Below, piece by piece: positions 26,961 to 64,000 of a DNA stretch of 64,000 bases. How positions within the stretch are numbered: position 1 is the first letter of the stretch; every line of letters starts with the position of its first letter. Below the pieces are notes generated by a model. It was given only the letters and a program-made list of their open reading frames with translations, did no database searches and was not told the origin of the DNA. Origin of the DNA: Onthophagus taurus (taxonomy: Eukaryota; Arthropoda; Insecta; Coleoptera; Scarabaeidae); assembly GCF_036711975.1 (NCBI RefSeq), contig NC_091968.1, positions 26,211,001 to 26,275,000 on the forward strand, written 5' to 3'. Position numbers and translations under genes: made by a program.

Positions 26961-27029
26961 GAGTGATATGGCATATATTACAAAATGTCAAAAATTTGGA
27001 TACTGACAGATATTTAAATTTTATTTATG

Positions 27030-28685: not shown

Positions 28686-28899
28686 CTTAAAAAGAATTGA
28701 AAATAAAAATTAAGTCAACTTGGCGTGACTCGTTTTGGCAAATATAATAATAATAATAATATATGTTTATTGATGATGTGACAATAATAATTAAAATAGT
28801 ACAATTCAAAACAAAATAGCTTTAACCTTATTACTTATTATATACATAATGAGTTTTACAATATACTCAACAAGCACATCATCAAAAATCAAAATTAGT

Positions 28900-31598: not shown

Positions 31599-31655
31599 GT
31601 TTGCAGTGAACTGCTTCAAGTTGAATACTGATTTGTATTTGAAAGATTTTGTGAA

Positions 31656-31661
31656 TTTATA
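31656..31661 (-). promoter_or_regulatory. TATA box of glycine-rich gene B
   Basis: Reads GATATAAATTC on the minus strand. About 30 bp downstream is an initiator-like TATTCAAC (near 31625), then about 30 nt of leader to the ATG at 31598. Confidence 0.6.
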
Positions 31662-32370
31662 TCGCCCGTTTTGGTCGGAAAAAGATGACAAAAAATCCAA
31701 CAATTTCTTAGTTGATCTCATTGCTTTCACCACGCTCCAATTTTACGCCCAACAACGATTCTGGTTGGGCAGGTGTACGGACGGAGTGTGCAATACGCGG
31801 ATTTCACGCTTGTTTATCGATTAGTCGTTTTGTTTTTAAGTAATAATTACGTTTTCTTGAAACGATATTCGTTTTTGGACAGTTATTAGGTTGTAGGCAT
31901 ATTAAAACAAATTTTAAAGGAAATTAAACCGGTTGTGAATTAATAATGAAAGGAAATCGGTATGTAAGTTGTGTTTATATGAGTGTGGATTTGTCGAGAT
32001 TAGATCGTAGAAAGGGATATGGAACTAATCGAAAATTGATGGATTGTGGGAAAGTATTTTATTAAAATTTGTGTTAAGTTTAAAAATAAAAATGTTTTGG
32101 TTTGAAAAATTTTTACTTAATAGATTAGAGTTACATAAATTTAAATTTTATTGTGTTTCTTGTCCATAACCGTCATGGTGTTTCTTAATTCTCCGTTATT
32201 AATTTGCGGAAAATTCTCGATTTGTTTTGTCCCAATAGTTTTGCTCAATAAGTCGATCATATTTTGTAAAGTCAATTTTGTAAAGTTATTGTAAAAAAGT
32301 CTATTTGAACAAGAACAATAAACATCTCAATTTTATTTTCTTATCGTTTATACTATTATCAGAGATTATT
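31662..32370. other. upstream region of gene B, no other gene seen
   Basis: 31662-31830 is GC-richer and may hold upstream promoter elements (cgcccaacaacgattctgg). The rest is AT-rich and unremarkable up to the satellite edge. Confidence 0.5.
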
Positions 32371-32374
32371 AACA

Positions 32375-34602
32375 TAAAACACAAAGTGTCAAAATTTGAC
32401 CATTTTTCTTAATAAATTGAACTACTTATAACGTAAGTACTAAAACTGATGGAGAAGAACGTTATGAATAAAAAATATTGCTAATGCATCAAGAAATTAT
32501 AATTCATAATTATTTCATAGTTATCTATCATCAGTTTTTAGTGATATAGCATAAATCACAAAATGTCAAAATTAGACGATTTTTCTTAATAAAATTAACT
32601 ATAACGAATGTACTAAAAGTGATGGAGAAAAATGTTATGAATAAAAAATATTGCTAATGCATCAATAAATCATAATGCATAATTATTTCATATTTATCCA
32701 TCACCAGTTTTTAGTGATATGGCATAAATCACAAAATGTGAAACTTGGGCGATTTTCCTTAATAAAATCTATTATAATATGAGTAGTAATATTGATGGAG
32801 AAAATCGTTATGAATAAAAAATATTCCTAATACATCAAGAAATCATCATCCATAATTATTTCATATTTATCTATCATCAGTTTTTAGTAATATAGCATAA
32901 ATCACAAAATGTCAAAATTGACGATTTTTCTTAATAAAATGAACTACTTATGTATAACGTAAGTACTAATACTGATGGAGAAGAATGTTATGAATAAAAA
33001 ATATTGCTAATGCATCAAGAAATCATCATCCATAATCATTTCATATTTATTTATCATCAGTTTTTAGCGATATAGCATAAATCACAAAATATCAAAATTG
33101 GACAATTTTCCTTAATAAAATCAACTATAACGTATGTACTAAAAATGATATGAATAAAAAGTATTCCTACTGCATTAAGAAACCATAATCCATCATTATA
33201 TCATATCTATTTATATTCAGTTTCTAATGATATAGCATAAACCACAAAATGCCAAAATTGGACGATTTTCCTTAATAAAATCTACTATAATATGAGTAGT
33301 AATATTGATGGAGAAAAATGTTATGAATAAAAAATATTCATAATGCATCAAGAAATCATAATCCACACTTATTTCATACTTATCTCTTACTAGTTTCTAA
33401 TGATATGATATAAATCATGAAATGTCAAAATTGGAAGATTTTTCTTAATAAAATCAACTACAATATAAATATTAAAACTGATGGAGAAAAATATTATGAA
33501 TAAAAAATATTCCTACTGCATCAAGAAACCATAATCCATAATTATATCATATCTATTTACATTCAGTTTCTAATGATATAGCATAAATCACAAAATGTCA
33601 AAAAAAGACGATTTTTCTTAATAAAATCAACTATAATATAAATATTAAAACTAATGGAGAAAAATGTTATGAATAAAAAATATTCCTAATGCACCAAGAA
33701 ATCATAATCCACACTTATTTCATACTTATCTCTTACTAGTTTCTAATGATATGATATAAATCATGAAATGTCAAAATTGGACGATTTTTCTTAAAAAAAT
33801 CAACTATAATATAAATATTAAAACTGATGGAGAAAAATGTTATGAATAAAAAATATTCCTAATGTATCGATAAATCATGATCAACACTTATTTCATATTC
33901 ATCTCTCACCAGTTTTTAATGATATGGTATAAATCACATAATGTCAAAATTGGACGATTTTTCTTAATAAACTCAACTATAATATAAATATTAAAACTGA
34001 TGGAGAAAAATGTTATGAATAGAAAATATTGCTAATGCATCAAGAAATCATAACCCACACTTTTTTCATACTTATCTTTCACCAGTTTCTAATGATATGG
34101 TATAAAACACAAAATGTCAAAATTGGACGATTTTTCTTAATAAAATCACCTATAATATAAATATAAAAAAATGATGGAGAAAAATGTTATGAATAGAAAA
34201 TATTGCTAATGCATCAAGAAATCATAACCAACACTTATTTCATACTTATCTTTCACCAGTTTCTAATGATATGGCATAAATCACAAAATGTCAAAATTGG
34301 ACGATTTTTCTTAATAAAAGCAACTATAATTATAAGTACTAAAACTGATGGAGAAAAATGTTATGAATAAAAAGTATTTCTAATACACCAAGAAATCATA
34401 ATCCACACTTATTTCATACTTATCTCTCACCAGTTTCAGTATAAATCACAAAATGTCAAAATTGGACGATTTTTCTTAATAAAATCAACTATAATATAAA
34501 TATTAAAACTGGAGAAAAATGTTATGAATAGAAAATATTGTTAATGCATCAAGAAATCATCATCCATTATTATTTCAGATTTATCTATCACCATTTTCTA
34601 GT
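32375..34602. repeat. 173 bp satellite, second array (~13 copies)
   Basis: Same unit as at 24.2 kb (aaaactgatggagaaaaatg, ttatgaataaaaaatatt, aaaatgtcaaaattggacg). Monomers in the first 900 bp are more diverged and variable in length; from about 33300 they are close to those of the first array. A partial monomer continues at 35046-35115 after the inserted MITE. None of the monomers here carries the LTR insert. Confidence 0.9.
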
Positions 34603-34610
34603 GATATAGC

Positions 34611-36954: not shown

Positions 36955-38985
36955 AAAGATAACATCATTAACTCGTTAAACGATATGGTATTTTAGCTCA
37001 ATTAAACTTATTTCTTCACAAAATTTAATAATTCAAGCAAGAAATGTAATGGCAGGGTTTAAATGTCAAAACTGACTTAATATAGATGATTGCCGCTAGA
37101 TGGGGTGAGCAAATATTTAAAAGAAAAGCAATTTTTAAGATAAAAAAATTTTAATTATAAAAGTTTGAAATCTTTACCTGAATGAAGATTAATGTTTCCT
37201 TATTATCTTAAAAAAATTGTTAATTAATGTTTTTTTCTAAAAAATAAATTAAATCCTCAAAAATTTTAGTGACAGATAAAAGTTAGGTTATGTTTTCTTC
37301 AATTTCGGGAAAAAATCACTTCTTAGAGTCCATAACCACTGTAAATAAATGATTCTGATGTGGATTTTAGCTCAATTAAACTTATTTATTGATAAAATTT
37401 AATAATCTTAGCAAGAAATGTAATCGTAGGGATTAAATGTCAAAACTGACTTAATATGGATGGTTGTCGCTAGATGGGGTTAACAACCATTAGAAAAGAA
37501 AGAATTTTTAACGATAAAAAAGATAATAATCATAAAACTTTGAAATCTTTACCTGAATGAAGATTAATGTTTCCTTATTATCTTAAAAAAATTATTTAAT
37601 AAATTGTTTTTCTAGAAAATAAATTAATTCCTCAAAAATTTTAAAGTTACAGATAAAAGTTAGGTTATGTTTTCGTGTTTTCTTCAATTTCGGGAAAAAT
37701 CTCCTTAGAGTCCATAACCACTGTAAATAAATGATTTGCGAGTCCAAAAATGTATTTTGATAGGAATTTAGGATCAATTAAACTTATTTTTTCGCAAAAT
37801 TTAATCATTTTAGCAAGAAATGTAATCGAAGGATTTAAATCTCAAAACTGACTTAATATAGATGGTTGCCGCTAGATGGAGCGCGCAATTATTTAGAAGA
37901 GAAGAAATTTTTAAGATAAAAAAAATAATAATCATAAAAATTTGAAATCTTTACCTGAATGAAGATTAATGGTTCCTTATTACCTTAAAAAAATTATTTA
38001 ATAAATTCTTTTTCTAGAAAATAAATTAAATCCTCAAAAATTTTAAAGTGACAGATAAAAGTTAGGTTATGTTTTCATTTCTTCTTTAATTTCGGGGAAA
38101 GATCACTTCCTAAAGTCAATAATCACTATAAATGATTAGTTTGAGAGTCCAAAAACGTATTCTGATGTGGATTTTAGCTCAATTAAACTTATTTATTGAT
38201 AAAATTTAATAATTTTAGCAAGAAATGTAATCGTAGGGATTAAATGTCAAAACTGACTTAATATGGATGGTTGTCGCTAGATGGGGTTAACAACCATTTA
38301 GAAAAGAAAGAATTTTTAACGATAAAAAAGATAATAATCATAAAACTTTGAAATGTTTACCTGAATGAAGATTAATGGTTCCTTATTATCTTAAAAAAAT
38401 CATTTAACAAGTTTTTCTTCTAGAAAATAAATTAAATCCTCAAAAATTTTAAAGTGACAGATAAAAGTTAGGTTATGTTTTCATTTCTTCTTTAATTTCG
38501 GGGAAAGATCACTTCTTAAAGTCAATAATCACTATAAATGATTAGTTTGAGAGTCCAAAAACGTATTCTGATGTGGATTTTAGCTCAATTAAACTTATTT
38601 ATTGATAAAATTTAATAATTTTAGCAAGAAATGTAATCGTAGGGATTAAATGTCAAAACTGACTTAATATGGATGGTTGTCGCTAGATGGGGTTAACAAC
38701 CATTTAGAAAAGAAAGAATTTTTAACGATAAAAAAGATAATAATCGTAAAACTTTGAAATCTTTACCTGAATGAAGATTAATGTTTGTTATTATATTAAA
38801 AAAATTATTTAATAAATTTTTTTTCTAGAAAATAAATTAATTCCTCAAAAATTTTGAAGTGACAGATAAAAGTTAGGTTATGTTTTCGTGTTTTCTTCAA
38901 TTTCGGGAAAAAATCTCTCCTTAGAGTCCATAACCACTGTAAATAAATGATTTGGGAGTCCAAAAACGTATTTTGATGGGAATTT
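36955..38985. repeat. 400 bp satellite, array 1 (~5 copies)
   Basis: Each unit (380-410 bp) contains gaaatctttacctgaatgaa, ccttattatcttaaaaaaat, gtgacagataaaagttaggt, gagtccaaaaacgtattttg and tgccgctagatggggtgagc. The acctgaatgaag phrase falls at about 37180, 37555, 37955, 38360 and 38768. The direct phrase aaatataacgtt...aaattatttaaatt occurs on both sides (36586 and 38988), as if the whole block was inserted there. Confidence 0.9.
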
Positions 38986-39195
38986 TGAAAAAATATAACG
39001 TTGTTTAAATTATTTAAATTCGAGTTAGAACAATAGTTTGAGTCATTGTATTTAATGAATTCTCTTATAAATAAATTTGTTGTATATTCAAGTTCAATGT
39101 TTTATTAATAAGAATTCTTCAAGGACAAAATACCGTTATTGAAAAAGTATTTTTAAACCTATCTTTATCTGACCACTTATTGGTTATCGACGCGT

Positions 39196-39257: not shown

Positions 39258-41177
39258 ATGAGTTTACCAACTCTATATCAACACTACACAAGCGGTGGAA
39301 TAACGGAAGGTTTGAACACAAACCAACCTTATTTCACCCTCAACCAAAAAAATATAACTTTATACAGCGGCGCGTTACATTATTTTCGAGTTCCTCAAGA
39401 ATATTGGCGCGATCGTCTCCGCAAAATGAAAGCGGCCGGAATAAACACGGTCGAAACTTACGTCCCGTGGAATTTACACGAACCAGAACCGGGTTTGTAC
39501 GATTTCGGCGCCGGAGGAAGCGATTTCCAAGAATTTTTAGACATCGAAAAATTCTTAAAAATGGCTCAAGAAGAGGATATGTTGGCGATTGTTAGACCTG
39601 GACCTTACATTTGTTCCGAATGGGATTTCGGCGGTTTACCATCGTGGTTATTAAAAGAGAAAGGAATCAGAGTGAGGACATCGGATGAGAAATTCATGAA
39701 TCACGTAACGAGGTTCTTTAATACTTTATTAACACTTTTGGCAGCGTTGCAATTCACTAGAGGGGGCCCGATTATTGCGGTACAAATCGAAAACGAATAT
39801 GGAAGCGCTAATTCGATCGATTACCCAATTGACATGGATTATATGGAACAATTAAGGGGGTTAATGAAAAATAACGGGATCGTTGAGTTATTTGTAACAT
39901 CAGATGGGCCATCTTACGGGAATTTGAGTCAAATGGAAGGGGTTTTATACACGGGGAATTTCCAAGATAACCCCGAACACGAATTAGGATTAATTGAAAA
40001 ATATCAACCGGGAAAACCAATCATGGTTATGGAATTTTGGACCGGTTGGTTCGATCATTGGTTAGCTAACCATCAAACGAGACCCCTCGATAAATTTTTA
40101 AGCGTCCTCGAAACGATTTTAGATTACCCCTCATCCGTTAATTTCTACATGTTCCACGGAGGAACCAATTTTGGATTCACAAACGGCGCAAACATCCTCG
40201 GTTTAACCGACGGGGGTAACAAACACGACACAACAAGTTACGATTACGACGCCCCACTCTCAGAAAACGGCGATTACACCGAAAAATACTTCGCTTTAAA
40301 AGAAGCGATTTCAAAACGATCCAACCCGCAACTTTATTTACCCCCCATGCCCGAATTAACCCCAAGAATCGCGTATAATCCAATAGAAATAACCGGGGAA
40401 TTAAGAATCTCCGATTTATTAAAATCCGAGTCTTACGTTGAAAGCGAAAATGTAATTTCAATGGAAAATATCGATATTAATAACGGAGGGGGTCAAAGAT
40501 TCGGTTATGTCGTGTATAAAAAAGAAAATTTAAACATCAAATCCGATTCGATTTTAAAAATTGAGGGGCGAGTTTACGATACGATTTTAGTTTTAATCAA
40601 TGGGGAATTAAAATCGAAAATTTTAACCTCAGAAAGCGACGTAAACGGATTCGGTTATTGGAGGGTTAAAGACGCTTCGTTGAATTTGGGATTAGAAAGT
40701 TACGAAGACGCAACTTTGGAATTAATCGTTGAAAATTCGGGGCGAGTTAACTTCGGTACTCTCAATCAATTTAATCAACAAAAAGGTTTATTCCAAGGGA
40801 ACGTGTTATTAAACGACGAAATTATTTTAAATTGGAAAATACACTCGTTGGAGTTTAAAAAGAATTGGACGAATTCTTTAACCGGTTGGGAAACCCCCAC
40901 TTTTAAAAACGGCCCTGCTTTATATCGAGGGGTTTTAAACGTTGAAAATCCCGATAAAGATACCTACATTGATTTGAGAGATTGGAGAAAAGGGGTTGTT
41001 ATTGTAAATGGTTTTGTATTATCGAGACATTTTCGAGTTGGCCCTCAATTGGCCGCTTATCTTCCAGCCCCGCTTTTAAAATCGGGCGATAATGAGATTA
41101 TTTTCTTTGAACATTTTGTAGGGAATGATAAAATCAACTTTTTAAGTGATATGGTTTATGGAGGATTCGACGATTAG
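39258..41177 (+). CDS. GH35 beta-galactosidase-like enzyme, copy B
   Basis: 639 residues, intronless, full family length. Acid/base E180 in QIENEYG, nucleophile E259 in MVMEFWTGWFDHW, plus HYFRV, NTVETYVPWNLHEP, RPGPYICSEWDFGGLP, YDAPLSENGDYTEKY, and the C-terminal RDWRKGVVIVNGFVLSRHF. The start is fixed by an in-frame TAA two codons upstream and by the promoter at 39196. There is no signal peptide (MSLPTLYQHYTSGG), unlike most secreted or lysosomal members, so it is either cytosolic or non-classically exported; that is an inference. The coding region is GC-richer than its surroundings. Against copy A the identity is moderate, so the duplication is not recent. AATAAA at 41184. It is convergent with the peroxidase gene, 166 bp between stops. 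Confidence 0.95.
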   Translation: MSLPTLYQHYTSGGITEGLNTNQPYFTLNQKNITLYSGALHYFRVPQEYWRDRLRKMKAAGINTVETYVPWNLHEPEPGLYDFGAGGSDFQEFLDIEKFLKMAQEEDMLAIVRPGPYICSEWDFGGLPSWLLKEKGIRVRTSDEKFMNHVTRFFNTLLTLLAALQFTRGGPIIAVQIENEYGSANSIDYPIDMDYMEQLRGLMKNNGIVELFVTSDGPSYGNLSQMEGVLYTGNFQDNPEHELGLIEKYQPGKPIMVMEFWTGWFDHWLANHQTRPLDKFLSVLETILDYPSSVNFYMFHGGTNFGFTNGANILGLTDGGNKHDTTSYDYDAPLSENGDYTEKYFALKEAISKRSNPQLYLPPMPELTPRIAYNPIEITGELRISDLLKSESYVESENVISMENIDINNGGGQRFGYVVYKKENLNIKSDSILKIEGRVYDTILVLINGELKSKILTSESDVNGFGYWRVKDASLNLGLESYEDATLELIVENSGRVNFGTLNQFNQQKGLFQGNVLLNDEIILNWKIHSLEFKKNWTNSLTGWETPTFKNGPALYRGVLNVENPDKDTYIDLRDWRKGVVIVNGFVLSRHFRVGPQLAAYLPAPLLKSGDNEIIFFEHFVGNDKINFLSDMVYGGFDD

Positions 41178-41343: not shown

Positions 41344-44300
41344 TTATTTCTTATAATAAAAGTCGTGTGGGTTTTCTAATGTAAATTGAGACCCTGAATT
41401 TGAAGAATCCCTCCACAAATTCAAATTAACCGATGGTATTTGTTCGCAAGAAACGACGGGGTTTCTAAAATCATAAAAATATCATATTTATCCTTAATTT
41501 GTTTAAATTTTGACTTACGAATCGGAAATTTTAATAAACCCTCTTGGTTGCATGCTTCTCACGTTTGCGTTGTCGCAGAAAAGTCTTGCTAAGCTCGTTT
41601 TTCTAATTTCGTTGAGTTGATCTATAACGAAAAAGAATTTGAATCAAATTAATTAATAAGTATTTAATAAATACCTAAATTAAATCCTGTTGGGCCGGAA
41701 TTTTCGAACCAAAATCGATCCCCAGCTCGCGTTCTGTAGAATTGTTCGGTTAAAATACATAAAAATGTTGGTCCTGATAAGGTGCCGGGTACCAAAATTT
41801 CTAAAGATCCACCGACTGTTAAATCGATATCGTCGACTGATTCATAAAGATTGGCCAATCTATTTACGTTCTAAAACAAGAAAGATTTACGTTAAGACAC
41901 AATATTATTGAAATAAAAAATTAAATTTAAACATAACCTGTCAAAATAGTAATTTGACATATTATTGTGAAGTTGGTGATTATTTAAAAAAGATAACATC
42001 ATTAACTCGTTAAATGATATGGTATTTTAGCTCAATTAAACTTATTTCTTCACAAAAAATTTAATAATTTAAGCGAAAATGTATTCGTAGGGTTTAAATG
42101 TCAAAACTGACTTAATATAGATGATTGCCGCTAGATGGGGTGAGCAAATTTAAAAGAAAATCAATTTTTAAGATAAAAAAATTTTAATTATAAAAGTTTG
42201 AAATCTTTACCTGAATGAAGATTCATTTTTCCTTATTATCTTAAAAAAAACGTTAATTAATAAGTTTTTTTCTAAAAAATAAATTAAATCCTCAAAAATT
42301 TTAGTGACAAATAAAAGTTAGGTTATGTTTCCATTTCTTCTTTAATTTCGGGGAAAGATCACTTCTTAGAGTCAATAATCACTGTAAATAAATGATTTGG
42401 GAGTCCAAAAACGTATTTTGATGGGAATTTTGGTTCAATTAAACTTATTTTTTCGCTAAATTTAATAATTTAAGCAAGAAATGTAATCGTAGGGTTGAAA
42501 TGTCAAAACTGACTTAATATAGATGGTTGCCGCTAGATGGAGCGCGCAATTATTTAGAGAGAAATTTTTAAGATAAAAAAAATAATAATAAAAATTTGAA
42601 ATCTTTACCTGAATGAAGATTAATGTTTCCTTATTATCTTAAAAAAATCATTTAACAAGTTTCTTTTTCTAGAAAATAAATTAAATCCTCAAAAATTTTA
42701 AAGGGACAAATAAAAGGTTATGTTTTCATTTCTTCTTTAATTTCGGGTAAAGATCACTTCTTAGAGTCAATAATCACTATAAATAAATGGTTTGGGAGAC
42801 CAAAAACGAATTTTGATAGGAATTTTGGCTCAATTAAACTTATTTTTTCGTAAAATTTAATAATTTTAGCAAGAAAAGTAATCGAAGGATTTAAATGTCA
42901 AATCTGACTTAATATAGATGGTTGCCGCTAGATGGAGCGCGCAATTATTTAGAAAAGAAGAAATTTTTAAGATAAAAAAATAATAATCATAAAAATTTGA
43001 AATCTTTACCTGAATGAAGATTAATGTTTCCTTATTATCTTAAAAAAATCATTTAACAAGTTTATTTTTCTAGAAAATAAATTAAATCCTCAAAAATTTT
43101 AAAGTGACAAATAAAAGGTTATGTTTCCATTTCTTCTTTAATTTCGGGGAAAGATCACTTCTTAGAGTCAATAATCACTATAAATAAATGGTTTGGGAAA
43201 CCAAAAACGAATTTTGGCTCAATTAAACTTATTTTTTCGCAAAATTTAATAATTTTAGCTAGAAATGTAATCGAAGGATTTAAATGTCAAAACTGACTTA
43301 ATACAGATGGTTACCGCTAGATGGAGCGCGTAATTATTTAGAATAGAAGACATTTTTAAGATAAAAACAATAATAATCATAAAAATTTGAAATCTTTACC
43401 TGAATGAAGATTAATGTTACCTTATTATCTTAAAAAAATCATTTAACAAGTTTTTCTTGTAGAAAATAAATTAAATCCCCAAAAATTTTAAAGTGACAGA
43501 TAAAAGTTAGGTTATGTTTTCTTCAATTTCGGGAAAAAATCACTTCTTAGAGTTCATAATCACTGTAAATAAATGATTAGGGAGTCCAAAAACGTATTCT
43601 GATGGGAATTTAGGCTCAACTAAACTTATTTTTTCACAAAATTTAATCATTTTAGAAGAAATGTAATCGTAGGGTTTAAATGTCAAAACTGACTTATATG
43701 GATGGTTGTCGCTAGATGGGGTGAGCAACTATTTACAAAAAAACTTCCTAGATTATCGAAGTATAGCCGTTTGCCGCCATTTTGGCTCAAAAGTGAAGCG
43801 GGAAATTTAAAACTATGTTGATAAAATTACGCCAAATTTCCTTTATTTTTTTTTCGCGTGGTACTATGAAGAGTCGAAAGCCCTTCTTACTGATCAGTAA
43901 ATTCCTTAAAAGCTGCGAGTGCAAAAGTTAAAATTAATTACATGTTGCGAACACTACCAGATTCATTGAGTTATATTGGACATTTGGTTGATGTTTTAAA
44001 AGAAGAGGATCAGGCCGTAGAGCATTTAAAAAGTAAAATAAGCTTGTTCAAATTAAAAGTTAAATGCTTTTTTTATAAAGAAAAGTCAGTAAAGGAGTTG
44101 CAAAGTTGATATTGCATGAGGATATTTTTTGGGTAAAAGTTTCAAAGTTTTATCAACTGGAAGGAGATAAACCAAGGTTAAGCCAAGTAGTTGAATGCTT
44201 TTATGAAAGGGAAGTAAAAAAACTTTTTAATTAAGAGAAGGCAAATAAATCCAATCCATCGTGCTGCAAATATTTCTAGATCCAAATTTTAATGGAATTC

Positions 44301-47300
44301 ATCTTAATAGAGAAGAACAAATACAAAGAACAGACTTTATAGACAATATGGCTACTGTAACAAGCCCAGATGGGTCTGTAGCGATAATGGCAGAATTAGC
44401 TCTTTATCGATCCAAAGAAGGGTTATTTGGAAAATTATGTTTTAAAATTCGTGGAAAAACTACATCCCGTTGTATGATAATACGCTTGCGTCGAGTAAAT
44501 AAGATAAATAAAATAAGTTTTATTGCTCATAATTTAAAATGATTAGATTCTGCCACCAATGTGGAGGTTTATGAACGTAATGAAGACCTTCCTGATATTA
44601 AAATAATTAAATGCAGTGATTTGGAAACTTTTCCAGAACCGTCTGAAAATTCATTAGATAAAATATATTCTAAACATCATAAATAAGTCCATAAATATGA
44701 ACCATACCACGTTACAGCCATCGAATTTTCCAAGCTGTATTTGTATTTAAATGCTTGTTCTCAAAAAATTCGCAAAATCGAGAATATTCTTCTATTTTTC
44801 TTTTTCTCGAGAATTTTCCATCTCTAGTTAAGATACAATATTATTGAAATAAAGAATAAAATCTAAACATAACCTATCAAAATAGTAAATTGTTAAATTA
44901 TTGTGAAGTTGGTGATAATTGGTGACAGTTCATTTATGTCACATTGACGTTTAAACTTTCGTTGTTTAAAAAGATAAAATTTAATTTTTTTTTTAAATGA
45001 AAACACTAAAAATTTTACCTTTACAGGTATTATAGTAAAAAAGTATTTTAATCAGTGGCGGCTTTAGGGTAAATAACCTATCAAAATAGTAAATTCAAAT
45101 TGACAAATGATTGTGAAGTTGGTGACAGTTTATTTATGTCACATTGACGTTTAAACTTTCGTTGTTTAAAAAGATAAAATTTAAATTTTTTTTAAATGAA
45201 AACACTACAAATATGCTATATACTCTATTGCTAATTAGCACTACCTAGCTTGTCACTAGAACTAACACTAGACTAAGAACTAGAAACCCAAATATTTATT
45301 GTTCTAGATCTAATATTAGTTCTACTTCTAGTACAATAACCTGATGCTGAATAACAAGTAAAATTACGTTTACTTCTTTTGATATCGATAATTTTTATAG
45401 GGACAATTACTTTTATAAATAAATTTGTATAATAACTTACATCTTTAGTCATAACATCAAGTAAATCATCAAAACTAGAAGCTTTTCCCAATCCACAAAA
45501 CTGTCTAACATCATTATAAGAAGCCAAACCATGATCACGATTTCTTTGTATACAAATAGCCTTCAAATCTTGACCGAAAAATTGTCCCATTCTAAATAAA
45601 AATTGTGTTATTTCGCTATCGTGGAATCGATCGGATTTTAATTCGGGTTGCGAAGCCATTCCGCGAGTTAAATCGTCGAAATTTGTGCCTTGTTCGAGAA
45701 CAGCTGGGCGATTAAACCAGTCACTCATACGAATGTTACCCATGTTATTTCTATATTCTCCGACGAGACTAAAAAAATAATTAAAATGAATTAATACACG
45801 GTGTTAATTAATTATCGTACCCAAAGTATGCAACCAAATGCGCAAATCGTGTATTGCAATACCGATACTGTGATATGGGTTGCATACGCTGTATATTTAA
45901 GAAATAAAAATAAATAATTACTCTAAATGTCCGGCGATTAACGAATGGAAAAATCTAAAAGCAGCGGTGGCGTGTTCGTTAATAACGGTTGGATCAACGT
46001 TTTCGTCGTAATCGTTAACGAAATCTTTGGTGTCCCAAATGATTCTATTTTTTAACGAATTTCCAACGCCAATAAAAATCGGTAACCATTCGTAATAAGA
46101 AATAAATTGATGCTGGGCTATATTAATTTTTCTCGCTTCTTGATACAAAGTTTCGTCATCCCAGTGTGGATTAATTTTAGATAACGAATCGGCTAAACGA
46201 TTATGTTCCCTAAACAATATAATTTGAAGAATGGTTAATTGAGGATTTTGATTAACTCGGACATCCCCGGCTGCGTAACACGCTTCTTGAGGGTTTAGAC
46301 GTAAATCGCAAACACCGGATGCGTTGTTATTTCTTGGTAACCATTCTTGGCCGTTCCGGAATTCCCCGGTTAATCTACCACCTTGGAACAATCGGACTTG
46401 CGCGCTAACTTGGTCTGTATTTCCATAAACGACGGATAAATCTAAGAAATGATTTACGGCGGAGATTTGTTCCGCTGGTTGGCTACCTCCAACGCAATTT
46501 CTATCACGATCTGTTATCGTTCTAACAAAACTCATACAATTTTGAGGTTGTAGCGTATTTTGATTAATTGGGTCATCTCTTGCTATCGTTAATGGGAAAC
46601 AATGTTCTGGGGAGTTTGCTAACTCTAATAATTGCCCCGTTGGTGAACAACACTTTGTATCATGTGGTTCTAAAAGGAAATTATTAAATTAAACCATGAC
46701 GAATTAAAAATAAATATTTACGCGCTTGTGTGCTTCCAGCAATCATACTCATATCGTGAGTAATAATTTGTCCATATTGCATAGCTGCAACTGTAAATTT
46801 AGGATCTTCAACTGGAACATCCGGGTATAAAATTAAACTTAAAGATCTTGCGGGGGGTAGTTCATTTCCAGATCGAGCTCTCGTTGGGGTACTAATTCCA
46901 TCTCCATAATTCGGAGGAACCAATCTGTTAAATCTCGTTTGTGGGATTCCCAACCCAGGGTTTCTTAAGTTATTACAAGAACCATCCAAAGTGCGATATC
47001 TAGATGGTTGGCAAGAAGCCGGAGCGGTTCCGCACCCCAAAGTGGCGGGATCTGGAGTCGTTGTTTGAAATTGGGGTTGAAATTGTTGTTGAAATTGCGG
47101 AAAATTAGGTTGAAATTGAGGTTGTGCTTGGCTAAAATAAAATAAATAAGATTTATTAGAAACGAAATAAAACCACAAAGTTATTTGTTGATGTTAAATG
47201 AGTTTTTTATGATTTTTACCCAAATCCCGTAGAATAAATCGGATTATTGGGTTGATTGAATGCGTGTGGACGTTGATAAACGGAATTTAAATTAATGTCA

Positions 47301-49024: not shown

Positions 49025-50935
49025 AATCTATAAAAGTTTGAAATCTTTACCTGAATGAAGATTCATTTTTCCTTATTATCTTAAAAAAATCGTTTACTAA
49101 TAAGTTTTTTTTCTAAAAAATAAATTAAATCCTCAAAAATTTTAAAGTGACAGATAAAAGTTAGGTTATGTTTTCGTTTCTTCTTCAATTTCTGGGAAAA
49201 TTGCTTCTTAGAGACCATAATCACTATAAATAAATAGTTTGGGAGCCCAAAAACGTATTTTGATGGGAATTGTGGCTGAATTAAACTTATTTTTTCACAA
49301 AATTTAGTAATTTTAGCTTAAAATGCAATCGTAGGGTTTAAATGTCAAAACTAACTTAACATGGATGATTGCCACTAGATGGGGTGAGCAAATATTTAAA
49401 AGAAAAGCAATTTTTTAAGGTAAAAAAATATTAATTATAAAACTTTGAAATCTTTACCTGAATGAAGATTCATTTTTCCTTATTATCTTAAAAAAATCGT
49501 TTATTAATAAGTTTTTTTTCTAAAAAATAAATTAAATCCTCAAAAATTTTAAAGTGACAGATAAAAGTTAGGTTATGTTTTCGTTTCTTCTTCAATTTCT
49601 GGGAAAATTGCTTCTTAGAGACCATAATCACTATAAATAAATAGTTTGGGAGCCCAAAAACGTATTTTGATGGGAATTGTGGCTCAATTAAACTTATTTT
49701 TTCACAAAATTTAGTAATTTTAGCTTAAAATGCAATCGTAGGGTTTAAATGTCAAAACTAACTTAACATGGATGATTGCCACTAGATGGGGTGAGCAAAT
49801 ATTTAAAAGAAAAGCAATTTTTTAAGGTAAAAAAATATTAATTATAAAAGTTTGAAATCTTTACCTGAATGAAGATTCATTTTTCCGTATTATCTTAAGA
49901 AAATCGATTACTAATAAGTTTTTTTCTAAAAAATAAATTGAATCCTCAAAATTTTTAAAGTGACAGATAAAAATTAGGTTATGTTTTCGTTTTTTCTTCA
50001 ATTTCGGGGAAAGATCATTTCTTAGAGTCCATAATCACTATAAATAAATAGTTTGGGAGCCCAAAAACGTATTTTGATGAGAATTGTGACTCAATTAAAC
50101 TTATTTTTTCGCAAAATTTAATAATTTTAGCTATAAATGTAACCGTAGGGTTTAAATGTCAAAACTGACTTAACATGGATGATTGTCACTAGATGGGGTG
50201 AGCAAATATTTAGAAGAAAAGCAATCTTTTAAGATAAAAAAATGCTAATTATAAAAGTTTGAAATCTTTACCTGAATGAAGATTCATTTTTCCTTATTAT
50301 CTTAAAAAAATCGTTTATTAATAAGTTTTTTTCCAAAAAAAAATTAAATCCTCAAAAATTTGAAAGTGACAGATAAAAGTTAGGTTATGTTTTCGTTTTT
50401 TCTTCAATTTCGGGGAAAGATCATTTCTTAGAGTCCATAATCACTATAAATAAATAATTTGGGAGCCCAAAAACGTATTTTTATGGGAATTGTGGCTCGA
50501 TTAAACTTATTTTTTCGCAAAATTTAATAATTTTAGCTATAAATGTAACCGTAGGGTTTAAATTTCAAAACTGACTTAACATGGATGATTGTCACTAGAT
50601 GGGGTGAGCAAATATTTAGAAAAAAAGCAATTTTTTAAGATAAAAAAATATTAATTATTAAAGTATGAAATCTTTACCTGATTGAAGATTTATTTATCCT
50701 TATTATCTTAAAAAAATCGTTTATTAATAAGCTTTTTTCTAAAAAATAATTTAAATCCTCAAAAATTTGAAAGTGACAGATAAAAGTTAGGTTATGTTTT
50801 CGTTTTTTCTTCAATTTCGGGGAAAGATCACTTCTTAGAGTTCATAATCACTATAAAAAAATAGTTTGGGAGCCCAAAAACGTATTTTTATGGGGATTGT
50901 GGTTCAAATAACTTATTTTTCGTAAAATTTAAAGA
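49025..50935. repeat. 400 bp satellite, array 3 (~5 copies)
   Basis: Same family as the arrays at 36955 and 41985, with acctgaatgaag at about 49049, 49458, 49870, 50272 and 50678 (the last as acctgattgaag). The first two units are nearly identical. Its right edge is only about 20 bp from the palindrome cluster. Confidence 0.9.
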
Positions 50936-50956
50936 TTGTTGTATAATTGTCATTAA

Positions 50957-51535
50957 ACTAGAACTAAAACTAACACTAGATCTAGAACTAGGATCATTCG
51001 GGTTTAGCCGTCTTGAGAGACGTGCGGCTAAATCCGAATGTTCCTAGTTCTCGGTCTAGTGTTAGTTCTAATTTTGCACTAGAACTAACACTAGACCTAA
51101 AACTAGAATCATTTGGGTTTAGCCGTCTTGAGAGACGTGCGGCTAAACCCGAATGATTCTAGTTGTAGGTCTAGTGTTAGTTCTAGCTTTACACTAACAG
51201 AATCACTAGAACGAATACATGATCTAGAACTAGAATCGTTGGGGTTTAGCCGCACGTCTCTCAAGACGGCTAAACTCGAATGATTCTAGCTCTCGGTCTA
51301 GTTTCAGTACTAGTTTTGTACTAGAACTAACACAAGACCTAGAACTAGAATCATTCGGGTTTAGCCGCACGTCTCTCAAGACGGCTAAATCCGAATGATT
51401 CTAGTTCTAGGTCTTGTGTTAGTTCTAGTGATAGTGCCAGTGTAAAACTAGACCTAGAACTAGAAACATTCGGGTTTAGCCGTCTTAAGAGACGTGCGGT
51501 TAAACCCGAATGTGTCTAGTTCTAGTTTTAGTATA
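50957..51535. repeat. cluster of five long palindromes with a two-orientation core
   Basis: Palindromes at about 50957-51071, 51078-51186, 51203-51316, 51320-51429 and 51447-51532. Each arm (about 47 bp in the second copy, only two mismatches) runs cactagaactaacactagac - aactagaatca - gggtttagccg. The loop is about 14 bp. The loop reads tcttgagagacgtg in copies 1, 2 and 5 and its reverse complement in copies 3 and 4. Arms differ between copies but are matched within a copy, which implies within-copy pairing or correction. GC content is well above the surroundings. No coding frame. Confidence 0.92.
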
Positions 51536-51539
51536 TACA

Positions 51540-52860
51540 CAAACGCCATCTGTAAAAATCTATTAACACTAAAAATATTTAAATGTGATACATATTGTAA
51601 TTAAATAGCTTGTAACGCATCAATTTTTCGTATCAAATCAGTTCAAGATCAATGCAAAAAAAAGAGAAATAAAGATTTCAATCGTTGTTTGTTGTGGTTT
51701 CAAAATGAAACGAGTTTCTTTAAATGGTAAAAATGCGGTACGAGATTCCTTCGTGTTTAAATTAATCCATAAAAAAAGTGTTTCAGTTAGAAGTCAAGGT
51801 GAAGTCAAGATTCTATTTCTACAGTTCTTCTTCTATTTGTATTTTGTATCTTAATTGTGTACTTATTACTAAGTAAATTCTAGACTATTACTAAATAAAT
51901 AATGTGAGATAATCCGGCGATTACTCATCGAAAGTAGCAGTTATTGACGGATAATTTATTGCATTAAAGCAATAATTGAGCAATTTAATACGTTTTGCTG
52001 ATTCAATTTGCAATTTACATCTGTAATAGGAGCACTCAGACACACCTTCTCTGTTTATAATGGCGTGAAAAATACTATTATTCTGTTAACATTGTTATTT
52101 CTTAACTAAGAAAAAAAAATAAATTAAAAAAGAAATTTAAGTTCGCGTTAAAGTGTTATTCCGGTTCTTTTATTGTCAATTTAGTCTTTTTTGGCAACAA
52201 GGACACTTTTTGCGGAGGTTATTGCGTAGGTTGTTTTAGTCACGGTTTTTTCCCCAATTTCGATTTCAATTTAAAGATTTATCATAAATGTGTTAAATTT
52301 TTTGGGTTATTTTTACCTTTCCAACGAAATTTATAGACACAAAGCACAAAAAATGAAGAACGTATCCTGCAAAGCCGTTGTTGTGTAAACAAATACCACA
52401 AGCACTACTGTATCCCTGATATACATTTGACCGCCCTCTTATAGATTTCGCGGAGCGAGAGAAAGTATTATTTTAACCAAGTACGACCACAACACTGGTT
52501 ATTGTCAGTTATATTGGTCGTTTTGTGTCAAAATTTTAATAAAACCATGTTTTTACTTTTTTTAATTGAGCAAAAAATTCATTAAATAAAAATTGTTCTC
52601 TTTGTTTATTCAGTCGATTCATAAAATGAGCTAACTCAATTATTTTCATCTGCTTGGCAGAAAGGTGAAATGATGTTCAACTAACCGTGGCAAATCCATT
52701 GATCATCGCGCGTTTCATTGTTAAATGGCAATTATCTTCGGTATAAATAAAGTGTTTAAGTTTAAGTGATCGATTTTCAGTGTAAGTATTTGAAATTCCT
52801 ATTTCAAAATGTTGCAAGAAACATTTCCTGATATAAAAGCAACAAAGTAACAAATTTTAT
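51540..52860. other. AT-rich intergenic DNA, no gene seen
   Basis: No convincing open frame. 52370-52480 is GC-richer (tttcgcggagcgagagaaag) without an identifiable feature. Confidence 0.5.
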
Positions 52861-53135: not shown

Positions 53136-53154
53136 GATATTTCCTTCAAGAAAT

Positions 53155-56100
53155 TAATTTTATAGCGAATTTTGAAAATCATCGATGAAAATTGCAACAT
53201 CGAAAATTTTATCAAAGCTTCAAATATTGTTTTCTCAAAAACTAAGAGCTATTTTTAAAAACGGGTTGGTTCATTGGAAAGAGGACACTTTTATTAATAC
53301 TTTGGGAAATTTTCATACTCATATTCCAAGAAATGCATTTTATACGAATTTTTAAAACTTAATCGGCGAAAATTGCAAAATTCGAAAAAATTGTCGATTA
53401 TTTCAAAATTTATTTTTCAAGAACTAAAAATGATTTTTCAAAACGGCTTTTTGCATTAAAAAGAGGATACTTTAATTAATAATTGGTGATATTTCCACAC
53501 CGATCCTTCAAAAAATTAATTTTATAGCGAATTTTCAAAGTTATCGACGAAAATTGCATCATCGAAAATTTTATCAAAGCTTCAAATATTGTTTTCTCAA
53601 AAACTAAAAATTATTTTACAAAACGGGTTGGTTCATTGGAAAGAGGACACTTTTATTAACACTTTGGGAAATTTTCATATTCATATTCCAAGAAATGGAT
53701 TTTATACGAATTTTTAAAACTTAATCGGCGAAAATTGCAAAATTCGAAAAAATTGTCGATTATTTCAAAATTTATTTCTCAAGAACTAAAAGTGATTTTT
53801 CAAAACGGTTTTTTGCATTAAAAAGAGGATACTTTAATTAATAATTGGTGATATTTCCACACGGATCCTTCAAAAAATTAATTTTATAGCGAATTTTGAA
53901 AGTTATCGATGAAAATTGCAACATCGAAAATTTTATCAAAGCTTCAAATATTGTTTTCTCAAAAACTAAAAATTATTTTACAAAACGGGTTGGTTCATTG
54001 GAAAGAGAACACTTTTATTAACACTTTGGGAAATTTTCATACTCATATTCCAAGAAATGCATTTTATACGAATTTTTAAAACTTAATCGGCGAAAATTGC
54101 AAAATTCGAAAAAATTGTCGATTATTTCAAAATTTATTTCTCAAGAACTAAAAGTGATTTTTCAAAACGGGTTGTTGCATTAAAAAGAGGATACTTTAAT
54201 TAATAATTGGTGATATTTCCACACGGATCCTTCAAAAAATTAATTTTATAGCGCATTTTGAAAGTTATCGATGAAAATTGCAACATCGAAAATTTTACAA
54301 AATTTCAAATATTGTTTTCTCAAAAACTAAGAGCTATTTTTAAAAACGGGTTGGTTCATTGGAAAGAGGACACTTTTATTAATACTTTGGGAAATTTTCA
54401 TACTCATATTCCAAGAAGTGAATTTTATAGGAATTTTTAAAACTTAATCGGCGAAAATTGCAAAATGTGAAAAAATTGTCGATGATTTCAAAAATTTATT
54501 TCTTAAGAACTAAAAATGATTTTTCAAAACGGTTTGTTGCATTAAAAAGAGGATACTTTAATTAATAATTGGTGATATTTCCACAAGGATCCTTCAAGAA
54601 ATGAATTTTATGGCAAAATTTGAAGATTATCGATGAAAATTGCAACATCGAAAATTTTATCAAAATTTCAAATATCGTTTTCTCAAAAACTAAGAGCTAT
54701 TTTTCAAAACGGGTTGGTTCTTTGGAAAGAGGACATTTTTATTAACACTTTGGGAAATTTTCATACTCATATTCCAAGAAATGCATTTTATACGAATTTT
54801 TAAAACTTAATCGGTGAAAATTGCAAAATTCGAAAAAATTGTCGATTATTTCAAAATTTATTTCTCAAGAACTAAAAATGATTTTTCAAAACCGCTTGAT
54901 GCATTAAAAAGAGGATACTTTAATTAATAATTGGTGATATTTCCACACGGATCCTTCAAAAAATTAATTTTATAGCGAATTTTGAAAGTTATCGATGAAA
55001 ATTGCAACATCGAAAATTTTATCAAAATTTCAAATATTGTTTTCTCAAAAACTAAGAGCAATTTTTAAAAACGGGTTGGTTCATTGGAAAGAGGACACTT
55101 TTATTAACACTTTGGGAAATTTTCATACTCATATTCCAAGAAATGCATTTTATACGAATTTTTAAAACTTAATCGGCGAAAATTGCAAAATTCGGAAAAA
55201 TTGTCGATTATTTCAAAATTTATTTCTCAAGAACTAAAAGTGATTTTTCAAAACGGGGTTTTTGCATTAAAAAGAGGGTACTTTAATAAATAATTGGTGA
55301 TATTTCCACACGGATCCTTCAAAAAATTAATTTTATAGCGAATTTTGAAAGTTATCGATGAAAATTGCAACATCGAAAATTTTATCAAAGCTTCAAATAT
55401 TGTTTTCTCAAAAACTAAGAGATATTTTTCAAAACGGGTTGGTTCATTGGAAAGAGGACACTTTTATTAACACTTTGGGAAATTTTTATACTCATATTCC
55501 AAGAAATGCATTTTATACGAATTTTTAAAACTTAATCGGCGAAAATTGTAAAATTCGAAAAAATTGTCGATTGTTTCAAAATTTATTTCTTAAGAACTAA
55601 AAGTGATTTTTCAAAACGGGTTTTTGCATTAAAAAGAGGGCACTTTAATTAATAATTGGTGATATTTCCACACGGATCCTTCAAAAAATTAATTTTATAG
55701 CGAATTTTGAAGATTATCGATGAAAATTGCAACATCGAAAATTTTATCAAAATTTCAAATATTGTTTTTTCAAAAACTAAAAGTTATTTTTCAAAACGGG
55801 TTGGTTCATTGGAAAGAGGACACTTTTATTAACACTTTGCGAAATTTTCATACTCATATTCCAAGAAATGTATTTTATACGAATTTTTAAAACTTAATCG
55901 GCGAAAATTGCAAAATTCGAAAAAATTATCGATTATTTCAAAATTTATTTCTCAAGAACTAAAAGTGATTTTTCAAAACGGCTTAATGCATTAAAAAGAG
56001 GATACTTTAATTAATAATTGGTGATATTTCCACAAGGATCCTTCAAGAAATGAATTTTATGGCAAAATTTGAAGATTATCGATGAAAATTGCAACATCGA

Positions 56101-58067
56101 AAATTTTATCAAAATTTCAAATATTGTTTTCTCAAAAATTAAAAGTTATTTTTCAAAACGTGTTGGTTCATTAGAAAGAGGACACTTTCATTAACACTTT
56201 GGGAAATTTTCATACTCATATTCCAAGAAGTGGATTTTATAGGAATTTTTAAAACTTAATCGGCGAAAATTATAAAATTCGAAAAAATTGTCGATTATTT
56301 CAAAATTTATTTCTCAAGAACTAAAAATGATTTTTCAAAACGGCTTTTTGCATTAAAAAGAGGATACTTTAATTAATAATTGGTGATATTTCCACAAGGA
56401 TCCTTCAAGAAATGAATTTTATGGCAAAATTTGAAGATTATCGATGAAAATTGCAACATCGAAAATTTTATCAAAGCTTCAAATATTGTTTTCTCAAAAA
56501 CTAAGAGCTATTTTTCAAAACGGGTTGGTTCATTGGAAAGAGGACACTTTTATTAACACTTTGAGAAATTTTCATATTCATATTCCAAGAAATGGATTTT
56601 ATACGAATTTTTAAAACTTAATCGGCGAAAATTGCAAAGTTCCAAAAAAATGTCGATTATTTCAAAATTTATTTCTCAAGAACTAAAAATGATTTTTCAA
56701 AACGGCTTAATGCATTAAAAAGAGGATACTTTAATTAATAATTGGTGATATTTCCACACGGATCCTTCAAGAAATGAATTTTATACCGAATTTTGAACAT
56801 TATCGATGCAAATTGCAACATCGAAAATTTTATCAAATCTTCAAATATTATTTTCTCAAAAACTAAACGTTATTTTTAAAAACGGGTTGGTTCATTGGAA
56901 AGAAGACACTTTTATTAACACTTTGGGAAATTTTCATACTCATATTCCAGGAAGTGGATTTTATAGGAATTTTTAAAACTTAATCGGCGAAAATTGCAAA
57001 ATTCGAAAAAATTGTCGATGATTTCAAAAATTTATTTCTCAAGAACTAAAAGTGATTTTTCAAAACGGCTTTTTGCATTAAAAAGAGGATACTTTAATTA
57101 ATAATTGGTGATATTTCCACACGGATCCTTCAAAAAATTAATTTTATAGCGAATTTTGAAAGTTATCGATGAAAATTGCAACATCGAAAATTTTATCAAA
57201 ACTTCAAATATTGTTTTCTCAAAAACTAAGAGATATTTTTAAAAACGGGTTGGTTCATTAGAAAGAGGACACTTTCATTAACACTTTGGGAAATTTTCAT
57301 ACTCATATTCCAAGAAGTGGATTTTATAGGAATTTTTAAAACTTAATCGGCGAAAATTGCAAAATTCGAAAAAATTGTCGATGATTTCAAAAATTTATTT
57401 CTCAAGAACTAAAAGTGATTTTTCAAAACGGCTTTTTGCATTAAAAAGAGGATACTTTAATTAATAATTGGTGATATTTCCACAAGGATCCCCCAAGAAA
57501 TGAATTTTATAGCAAATTTTGAAGATTATCGATGAAAATTGTAACATCAAAAATTTTATCAAAATTTCAAATATTGTTTTCTCAAAAACTAAGAGCTATT
57601 TTTCAAAACGGGTTGGTTCATTGGAAAGAGGACACTTTTATTAACACTTTGGGAAATTTTCATATTCATATTCCAAGAAATGGATTTTATACGAATTTTT
57701 AAAACTTAATCGGCGAAAATTGCAAAAATCGAAAAAATTGTCGATCATTTCAAAAATTTATTTCTCAAGAACTAAAAATGATTTTTCAAAACGGTTTGTT
57801 GCATTAAAAAGAGGATACTTTAATTAATAATTGGTGATATTTCCACACGGATCCTTCAAAAAATTAATTTTATAGCGAATTTTGAAAGTTATCGATGAAA
57901 ATTGCAACATCGAAAATTTTATCAAAGCTTCAAATATTGTTTTCTCAAAAACTAAAAATTATTTTACAAAACGGGTTTGTTCATTGGAAAGAGAACACTC
58001 TCATTAACACTTTGGGAAATTTTCGTACTCATATTCCAAGAAGTGGATTTTATATGAATTATTCGGG
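53155..58067. repeat. satellite, 361 bp dimeric unit, ~13.6 copies
   Basis: Each unit is two diverged halves of about 180 bp. Half A has gaaaattgcaacatcgaaaa, aaaacgggttggttcattgg and aaagaggacacttttatt. Half B has gaaaattgcaaaattcgaaa, ttgcattaaaaagaggatac and ggtgatatttccacacggat. The parallel gaaaattgcaa..., ctcaagaacta/ctcaaaaacta and aagagga[ct]ac phrases show that A and B come from one ancestral monomer. The phrase acttaatcggcg returns every ~361 bp from about 53357 to about 57703. An occasional 60-codon open frame (for example 54258-54440) is incidental. Confidence 0.93.
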
Positions 58068-61904: not shown

Positions 61905-63672
61905 ATAGCAGAAGAGGAGATCGAAGCAGTGCTTAGGGGATTGAAGAAGGGAAAGGCGCCAGGGGAAGATGGCATCCAGAACGAGGTATGGTTGGAAGCA
62001 TCAAGGGTGGTGAGAGTGAAGTTGTTGGAGGGGATGAATAGCGTATGGAGAGGGGGGGGATTCCGGAGGGATGGAAAGTGGGGGTAATTTGCCCAGTATA
62101 TAAAAAGGGTAATAAGGGAAGGGTAGAAAGCTACAGAGGAATTAACCTACTAGACTGGGCATACAAGGTATACACGAAGATACTGCTGGGAAGACTGGAG
62201 GAGGAGAGGGGAATTTTGCCGGATGGGCAGGCAGGCTTTCGGAAGGGAAGGGGAGCAATCGACAACGTGTACGTGTTAAAGCATCTGGCAGATAGAGAGC
62301 TGTATAAGAAGGGAGGGAAATTGTACGCCCAGTTTATAGATTTGAAGGCGGCTTTTGATAAGGTGGATAGGGGAAAGTTGTGGGAGGAGATGGGGAGGAG
62401 GGGGATCACGGAACACCTAATTGCGAGAGTGAAGGAAATATACATGGAGACTATGGCGATAAGCTGAGCGACGTGTTTTGGACGACGAAGGGACAGAGGC
62501 AGGGATGTCCGCTGAGCCCAAGTCTGTTTGCACTGTATACGGCGGACCTGGAGGATAGATTGAGGAAGGGGCAAATGGGAGGGTTGGTGGTGGGAGGTAG
62601 AAAGGTGCATATGTTAGCATACGCGGATGACATCGTGGTCATGGCGAGAGAAGTGGCGGAGATGAAAGATATGATAAAGACATTGGAAAGATATTTTAGG
62701 GGGAAGGGGCTGGAAGTGAATGTGGGGAACACAAGGATGATGAAGTTTTGTAAGGGGGGGAGAAAAAGAACAGAAAACTGGAGATGGGAGGGAAAAGAGA
62801 TCGAGGAGGTTAGGGAGTATACTTACTTGGGGTATGTGTTCAGGGAGGACAACAGGGAGGGGTCGCATGTGATAGCAATGGCAAAAAAGGCGAATAAGGT
62901 GATGGGACAAGTATGGGGTTGGGGGAAGAGAGTCTTTGGAAGGAATGTGGCAGCGAGGAAGATTATGTTTGAAGGTCTGGTTAGCAGTGTGATGATGTAT
63001 GGAGCAGAGGTATGGGGATGGAGAGAGCAGGCAATGCTGGAGGACGTGCAAGCTAGATACTGGAGATGAGTGCTTGAGGTGGCGAGAGGAACACCGGGAT
63101 ATATAGTGAGGGAAGAGGTAAAGGTGGATAAAGTCAGAGTGGAGGGGGGCAGGAGAGCAGTGAAATATGAAGAAAGAATAGAAGGGAGGCCAAACTGCGG
63201 GATCTTGGGGGAGTGTTGGAGGGAAAGATCAAATATGGGAAAGGAGACAGAGACAACTATTATAGACGAGCGGGCTACTCGGTAACTGAGATAAATAGTA
63301 GACGAAGGGTGGGTAGGGAGATGTGGAGGGAGTTGAGAGATAGGGACCGAGATATGCAGAGACAGGAAAGAAGGACACAAATAAAAGAGGGGAGGTATAA
63401 CGAAAGGTACAGGGACATAATGACGGAGGGGCTGCCTAGATACTTGTTATTGGAAGGAGATGAGGAATTGAAGAAGTTGGTGGCTAGGTTCCGTTGTGGA
63501 AACGAGGAGAGAGCGAACAGATACTGGATGGCCGATGAGGAGAGGTGGTGTAGGCTATGCAGGGAGGAATGGGAAACGTTGGAACATATGTTGAATGGGT
63601 GCAGTGAGTTGTGGGAGGAGGAGTTGGACCGAGGGCAGATCTTAGGAGAGCGGGGAGAGGGGAACGATGGAT
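61905..63672 (+). pseudogene. non-LTR retrotransposon (LINE) reverse transcriptase, broken
   Basis: Starts in the RT domain (EEEIEAVLRGLKKGKAPGED), then PVYKKGNKGRVESYRGINLL, LPDGQAGFRKGRGAIDNVY, FIDLKAAFDKVDR, GQRQGCPLSPSLFALY, the catalytic YADD (62620-62631), YTYLGYVF, and a C-terminal Cys-His knuckle CX2CX8HX4C (63549-63602). The endonuclease domain is absent, so it is 5'-truncated; the 3' end stops without an A-tail. Breaks: a frameshift in the G-run 62052-62059, another near 62460, an in-frame TGA at 63067, and a third frameshift near 63210. Its purine-rich, GC-richer sequence stands out against the AT-rich surroundings. Both ends abut CCTCGG-box repeats. I cannot name the clade with confidence. 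Antisense open frames here are shadows. Confidence 0.9.
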
Positions 63673-63684
63673 ATACTATTGGTT

Positions 63685-64000
63685 CTAGCGCCTCGCCCGC
63701 AAGCGACCTCGGCGATATTAGATGATATTGTTTATTTGATGTCTTGGAAAATGAACCATGTGTACAGCAGTTAAATCACACATTCTTGTAAACTATTTTG
63801 TATGGAGATAATCAATGTCAACGCAAAACTACCTCTGCTTAATTAAGCCATGTAATCTTGAAAACTGTCTTATATCAATGTAGCGCCTCGGAGCAACCTC
63901 GGCTTAATTAAGTCGCACATTCTTGAAAATTATTTTGTATCGATGTTACACTTCGGTCACAAAGCTACCTCCGCTTAATTAAGCCAAACATTCTTGAAAA
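63685..64000. repeat. CCTCGG-box repeats, second block (runs off the window)
   Basis: Four units of about 80-100 bp. Each has a box (gcctcgcccgcaagcgacct; gcctcggagcaacct; a decayed cttcggtcacaaagctacct) followed by cggcttaattaag and cattcttgaaaa. The last three units are the most regular, so the array probably continues beyond 64000. Confidence 0.75.

Follow-up and report, generated by a model that had tools for sequence, protein, structure and literature searches.

A palindromic satellite of Onthophagus taurus, probably dispersed by a transposon and subject to occasional microinversion at the hairpin centre

We analysed a five-unit palindromic array within a 64-kb stretch of DNA (hereafter the window, C3:26,211,001-26,275,000, within a 290.8-Mb assembly of 33 contigs), together with related repeats sampled across the genome. 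The explanation that we consider likely is a transposon-dispersed palindromic satellite in which the hairpin centre has occasionally undergone microinversion. For the family, in-place inversion of the hairpin centre with breakpoints inside the arms is supported by the comparison of sibling units, decisively at one locus (L014) and with good evidence at two others (L013 and L038). The array of the window is probably a local, truncated copy of this dispersed palindromic satellite travelling with a transposon, and for an inner inversion of its own copies 3 and 4 the evidence is suggestive only. The sequence can be explained without any cellular function.

Under this explanation, a nonautonomous pogo/Tigger-like (Tc1/mariner-related) transposon would have spread the copies, and tandem duplication would have multiplied them in place. 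From time to time the palindrome may fold back during replication or repair, and a segment between two points of the arms, holding either the core or the linker, would then be copied from the opposite strand and end up inverted. Occasional conversion between the arms may add a weak match within copies.

The five-unit array of the window

The array and its immediate surroundings comprise the following features (positions are those of the window, with the strand after the coordinates).

50957..51540, no strand assigned: palindromic array of five units, the subject of this analysis
50962..51073, +: copy 1, with arms at 50962-51010 and 51025-51073 and core at 51011-51024 (+)
51079..51186, +: copy 2, with core at 51126-51139 (+) and arm limits taken from the predicted fold
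51205..51314, -: copy 3, with arms at 51205-51252 and 51267-51314 (75% paired) and core at 51253-51266 (-), candidate for inner inversion
51320..51429, -: copy 4, with arms at 51320-51367 and 51382-51429 (98% paired) and core at 51368-51381 (-), weaker candidate
51447..51532, +: copy 5, with arms at 51447-51482 and 51497-51532 and core at 51483-51496 (+), which reads TCTTAAGAGACGTG
50933..50956, no strand assigned: junction stretch to the 407-bp satellite, by eye like the internal spacer of other copies
49029..50932, no strand assigned: 407-bp satellite array adjoining the palindromes on the left, given as context and outside the palindromic unit

The cores, which start at 51011 (+), 51126 (+), 51253 (-), 51368 (-) and 51483 (+), are spaced 115, 127, 115 and 115 bp apart. 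As single strands all five units fold far better than their shuffled counterparts, with z values of -12.4, -16.4, -5.8, -20.1 and -10.4 for copies 1 to 5 (200 shuffles each, 0 of them as good), which establishes the five tandem palindromes first proposed in a sequence-only reading of this DNA. That reading had also described the pairing of the arms as almost complete, which holds for copy 4 (98% over 48 nt) and nearly so for copy 1 (88%, 49 nt) and copy 5 (89%, 36 nt), but not for copy 3, where only 75% of 48 nt pair; the stems of copies 2 and 4 are near-perfect in the predicted fold. Its account of the loops, with one sequence in copies 1, 2 and 5 and the exact reverse complement in copies 3 and 4, is right for the first four copies, but the core of copy 5 is one base off. 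The 14-nt loop is predicted to half-fold on its own as TCT-TGAG-AGA, so that the asymmetric part would come down to a short bulge and four loop bases.

Dispersal of the family across the genome

The exact core TCTTGAGAGACGTG occurs 4,932 times in the 291-Mb assembly (2,471 and 2,461 on the two strands), and its reversed control 0 times. A search of the genome with the whole array yielded at least 303 matches, with 40 of 4,452 candidates scored. To sample arrays, 10 of the first 68 loci were dropped for overlap, resulting in 58 distinct loci (L009 being the window, and L011 and L024 still overlapping in part) with 366 units. Sampled loci contain up to 28 units, whose spacing is mostly 115, 121 or 127 bp and so varies by multiples of 6 bp; the repeat is a satellite in that its monomers stand head to tail in tandem, in many short dispersed arrays. 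Each unit has a short asymmetric core between two arms that are nearly complementary; the linker from one unit to the next is also short and asymmetric, and it too lies between complementary arms.

Of the 58 distinct loci, 14 have a CAGTAAAACCTCGATATAACGGA-like end (at most 5 mismatches in 23 positions) close to the repeat, of a kind that suggests a pogo/Tigger-like (Tc1/mariner-related) element; this fraction is not a genome-wide share because 10 of the 14 come from 30 loci chosen by a half-palindrome. All 14 ends face outward, with the array or half-palindrome inside, and 11 of them have TA just outside. The scan of the 58 loci found both ends at none of them, a second, shortened end at L062 being recognised by eye only, and the array of the window has no CAGTAAAACCTCGATATAACGGA-like end beside it. 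No transposase could be linked to these ends: the assembly has 150 matches to DDE_1 (PF03184), and between the 64 listed on C1-C3 and the 100 listed of the 205 exact ends the shortest distance is 5.6 kb. As for a foldback element, arrays and palindromes are present, and in the loci examined no element was resolved that was complete, with an array in each of its two arms and with a target duplication. By eye, L010 and L028 have flanking sequence in common to the left and to the right of the array, and from these shared flanks arrays also seem to travel inside a larger repeated segment.

The half-palindrome GTCTGAAGACGCACGGCTAAACC, related to the repeat, has 155 + 137 exact copies genome-wide. 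On C1, 35 of its 49 copies lie within 5 Mb of a contig end, versus 11.1 expected (about three-fold enrichment); the presumed pogo-like transposon end, used as a yardstick on the same contig, is not enriched (12 of 50, versus 11.3 expected). An exact five-fold repeat of TCAGG, the beetle telomere motif, was not found in the assembly. Outside this genome, an exact 30-mer of the repeat had 0 matches in viral contigs, and a 19-mer had 3 bacterial matches in prokaryote contigs, about what chance would give in 257 billion bases by our own estimate.

Two further sequences mark sharp edges of related repeats. At L041, L058, L063 and L067, near position 1500, the repeats stop abruptly at GTCTGAAGACGCACGG beside unrelated DNA; GTCTGAAGACGCACGG is the tip of a second palindrome type, and the fragments look as if broken or started at the hairpin tip. 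GTCTGAAGACGCACGGC often abuts unrelated DNA at a sharp boundary, as the end of a separate mobile element might, but in other places it forms the middle of a second palindrome type.

Orientation of cores, arms and linkers

Cores within the sampled arrays keep one orientation over long runs, interrupted by isolated flips: among 272 pairs of neighbouring units at most 135 bp apart (58 loci, 366 units), 244 share their core orientation and 28 differ. Whole arrays are likewise found in both orientations genome-wide. When 335 units (from 55 sources) were aligned with their cores the same way round, side-specific bases emerged in the two arms, at positions 9, 17, 28 and 34 counted from the core, as well as in the linker. 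Of 214 informative units at position 17, 7 were out of phase with the core and 207 agreed with it; at position 34, 207 of 216 were in phase and 9 out. The linker markers were out of phase more often than either, with 171 of the 190 units with unlike sides in phase and 19 out, corresponding to an in-phase share of about 96% of informative units for the arm markers and 90% for the linker; units outside these counts have sides that are alike or unclear. Counts from this set, as from the sets of 33 and 365 units below, include related neighbours and do not represent independent events. Since arrays lie both ways and the arm markers are mostly in phase, much of the variation across the genome is in the orientation of entire units or arrays.

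For inversion of the core alone, the fit of a unit to its nearest sibling was compared with the whole unit turned and with only the centre turned. Opposite-core units, with a core oriented against most cores of their array, numbered 33 (copies 3 and 4 of the window, as L009, are counted here); of these, 19 fitted better by a centre-only turn, 12 tied (including units of L010, L012 and L056) and 2, in L069 and L070, fitted better by a whole-unit flip. The like-for-like control kept the core and turned the outer arms of 365 majority units; 17 fitted better out of phase, 264 tied and 84 gave the opposite result. A gain of at least 5 bases was seen in 7 of the 33 opposite-core units versus 1 of the 365 majority units. 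The outer arms of opposite-core units tend to remain in register with the rest of the array. An earlier control, in which 0 of 365 majority units came nearer after inner re-inversion, was not counted, being nearly automatic in that it also reverses a correct core.

The clearest case is unit 1775 of L014 (116 bp), which differs from its nearest sibling by 16 mismatches as it stands, by 10 after a whole-unit flip and by 0 after a centre flip. Mismatches are zero for any flipped central half-width of 22-40 bp (a tract of 44-80 bp), and a base that the siblings carry on the right is found in the left arm of this unit. Unit 1908 of L013 goes from 19 mismatches to 11 by a whole flip and 3 by a centre flip, and unit 1908 of L038 from 17 to 4 and 2 respectively. 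A hairpin-centred microinversion is a segment between inverted repeats that has been inverted in place with its flanks in register, which is what unit 1775 of L014 presents and what the excess of centre-only turns (19 of 33, versus 17 of 365) points to, so that the inversion at a hairpin suggested by the sequence-only reading is supported at the level of the family. The remaining 16 of the 19 centre-turn units weigh less, as they are diverged and keep 9 or more mismatches to their siblings even at best, and L014, chosen because its row stood out, is an existence proof and not a measure of rate. Linkers flip too: among the linkers between two cores of the same orientation, 233 of 249 scored agree and 16 are opposite (14 more were unscored), the opposite ones coming from six loci (L008, L023, L038, L050, L052 and L058) and several of the 16 being tandem duplicates of one another.

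In the window itself, copy 3 has 18 mismatches to the nearest other copy of the array with its centre turned versus 22 with the whole unit turned, and copy 4 has 9 versus 12. Against 341 distinct units sampled elsewhere, copy 3 has 11 mismatches out of phase versus 13 in phase and copy 4 has 2 versus 3; copies 1 and 2 lie 5 and 3 mismatches from their nearest sampled unit, in and out of phase alike, and copy 5 is diverged, with 18 versus 19 mismatches. Copy 3 has a - core, yet its outer arm marker at position 34 is in the + sense, and both adjacent linkers are + by eye. These differences remain suggestive because the array is diverged and because, when each sampled unit was left out in turn, 34 of the 341 also fitted better out of phase, mostly by 1-2 bases. 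That copies 3-4 arose from copies 1-2 by one inversion was considered and rejected: identity is 85% inverted versus 74% direct, and by our own estimate the cores account for most of the difference.

A reading in which every change of orientation affects a whole unit or several units, produced by insertion or duplication either way or by recombination between palindromes, with no inversion of the centre alone, would account for the markers in phase at positions 17 (207 of 214) and 34 (207 of 216), for the 12 ties among the 33 opposite-core units and for the whole-unit flips preferred in L069 and L070. At L012, moreover, the neighbours of unit 1654 also have altered facing linkers, a pattern expected from a longer inversion. 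We regard this reading as unlikely, as it does not predict that a centre-only turn is better in 19 of 33 opposite-core units versus 17 of 365 majority units, nor that unit 1775 of L014 matches its sibling exactly only with the centre turned (0 mismatches versus 10). The flipped units might instead be sequencing or assembly errors at hairpins, given that long hairpins are difficult templates and that all flip evidence comes from one assembly, where an assembly or consensus error is in principle possible. We think this quite improbable: opposite-core units occur in 19 tested loci with differing arm variants, and the flip in L014 involves a reciprocal exchange of the arms over at least 44 bp, both observations being indirect as to read support. 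Occasional microinversion at the hairpin centre of a dispersed satellite is therefore the reading that we prefer. A stronger version of it, in which core and linker loops flip recurrently at an appreciable rate and the satellite, with its approximately 4,900 exact cores, is a natural replicated record of hairpin-mediated microinversion, we put forward tentatively and with some doubt; if it were true, one genome would allow estimates of how often inversion occurs, how long the tracts are and how far the process depends on arm pairing.

The sequence-only reading had also held that arms match mostly within a copy, and had named arm-to-arm conversion beside inversion as a source of this match. With arms of 46 nt, left and right match at 41, 44, 34, 45 and 33 positions within copies 1 to 5 of the window, and the true pairing is the only one of the 120 possible left-right pairings to reach the total of 197 (mean 189). 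The within-copy match thus stands for the array, with an average advantage of about 2 bases per arm, but copies 3 and 5 are poorly matched. In the sampled arrays, 39.52 of 46 bases match within a unit versus 39.40 between neighbours (of 244 pairs, 54 favour the unit itself, 22 the neighbours and 168 neither), and the array means differ by +0.51 of 46 bases (33 arrays: 19 positive, 8 negative, 6 zero; p 0.01). An association between left and right arms is seen at position 9 (p 0.003), and none at position 17 (p 1.0) or 34 (p 0.84). Arm-to-arm conversion is weakly supported, and with so small an excess within units and an association at position 9 only, it is at most a minor process by these measures. 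Slightly better matching within units than between neighbours, along with the near-perfect stems of copies 2 and 4, would also be expected if the palindromes were kept as transcribed hairpin RNAs that feed a small-RNA pathway, with arm matching under selection; hairpin RNAs are known in Drosophila (PMC10292708). For the present repeat we consider such a putative role very improbable, given that the markers at positions 17 and 34 are no better matched within units, that the arms of copies 3 and 5 match poorly and that a scan of the window against Rfam yielded no family at the gathering score.

Related systems and other features of the window

Tiny hairpin inversions are known from chloroplasts and apes, and their setting inside a repeated array is what differs here. 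In the hairpin microinversions of chloroplast loops, which flip in a similar way (Kelchner and Wendel 1996, cited in PMC2903610), and in those between human and chimpanzee (PMC8755829), as in the present repeat, a short segment between inverted repeats occurs in both orientations; unlike them, the hairpin here is the monomer of a tandem, dispersed repeat, and so there are many replicates in one genome. The inverted segments in PMC8755829 measure 17-33 nt, whereas the tract of L014 spans 44-80 bp and includes part of the arms.

How minute inversions at inverted repeats originate is unsettled. Human-chimpanzee microinversions flanked by inverted repeats have been attributed to template switching, a process described in apes in PMC7954356; PMC8755829 holds it insufficient for many of its cases and proposes microhomology-mediated break-induced replication. 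In birds, two microinversion hotspots without stem-loops (PMC3123225) indicate that hairpins are not always involved. Our data do not separate these mechanisms. In a tandem palindrome family, near-identical neighbouring units of the same genome serve as the reference for locating an inverted tract and its breakpoints, and inversions could be counted against arm identity, stem length and age.

The Tetris foldback transposon and TIR-220 satellite of Drosophila virilis (PMC4079207) are similar in that repeats of a nonautonomous DNA transposon build satellite-like arrays. Tetris has TIRs of up to 1,735 bp, internal repeats of 220 bp and target duplications of 8-10 bp; the monomer here is palindromic and about 115-127 bp long, and the outer ends look TA-flanked. 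Satellites with macro-dyad symmetry in Tribolium madens (PMC13081366) likewise have arrays that change orientation and could form hairpins, but their inverted subarrays extend over several kilobases with conserved inversion sites, while single loops or linkers flip inside units of 115-127 bp in the present family. Palindrome P6 of the human Y chromosome undergoes arm-to-arm conversion and, more rarely, inversion, which was detected by the phase of arm variants (PMC3723533), as it was in our analysis; P6 stands alone as one large palindrome, with 56 conversions versus 3 inversions in the phased set, and in our repeat arm conversion is barely visible. A literature search by sequence words of the repeat gave no title on this repeat among the matches listed, and among the titles listed in further searches, which lay largely outside subscription papers, none dealt with the flipping of loops within a palindromic satellite.

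Elsewhere in the window, satellite-like arrays with periods of about 173-180, 333-362 and 395-407 bp lie between gene-like ORFs (at 14865-16879, 17420-18989, 24176-26993, 32373-34610, 37352-38986, 42015-43740, 49029-50932 and 53142-58060). By eye, the long ORFs at 12464-14368 (-) and 39258-41177 (+) resemble family-35 beta-galactosidases, and the ORF pieces at 45273-47178 (-) resemble exons of an animal haem peroxidase. Two stretches are strongly repetitive (27639-28713 and 30636-31733), the second coinciding with a glycine-rich ORF on the - strand that is cuticle-protein-like by eye. Remains of a LINE-type reverse transcriptase were recognised by eye at 62045-63725 (+), and GC skew is strong, at 0.50, over 62001-64000.
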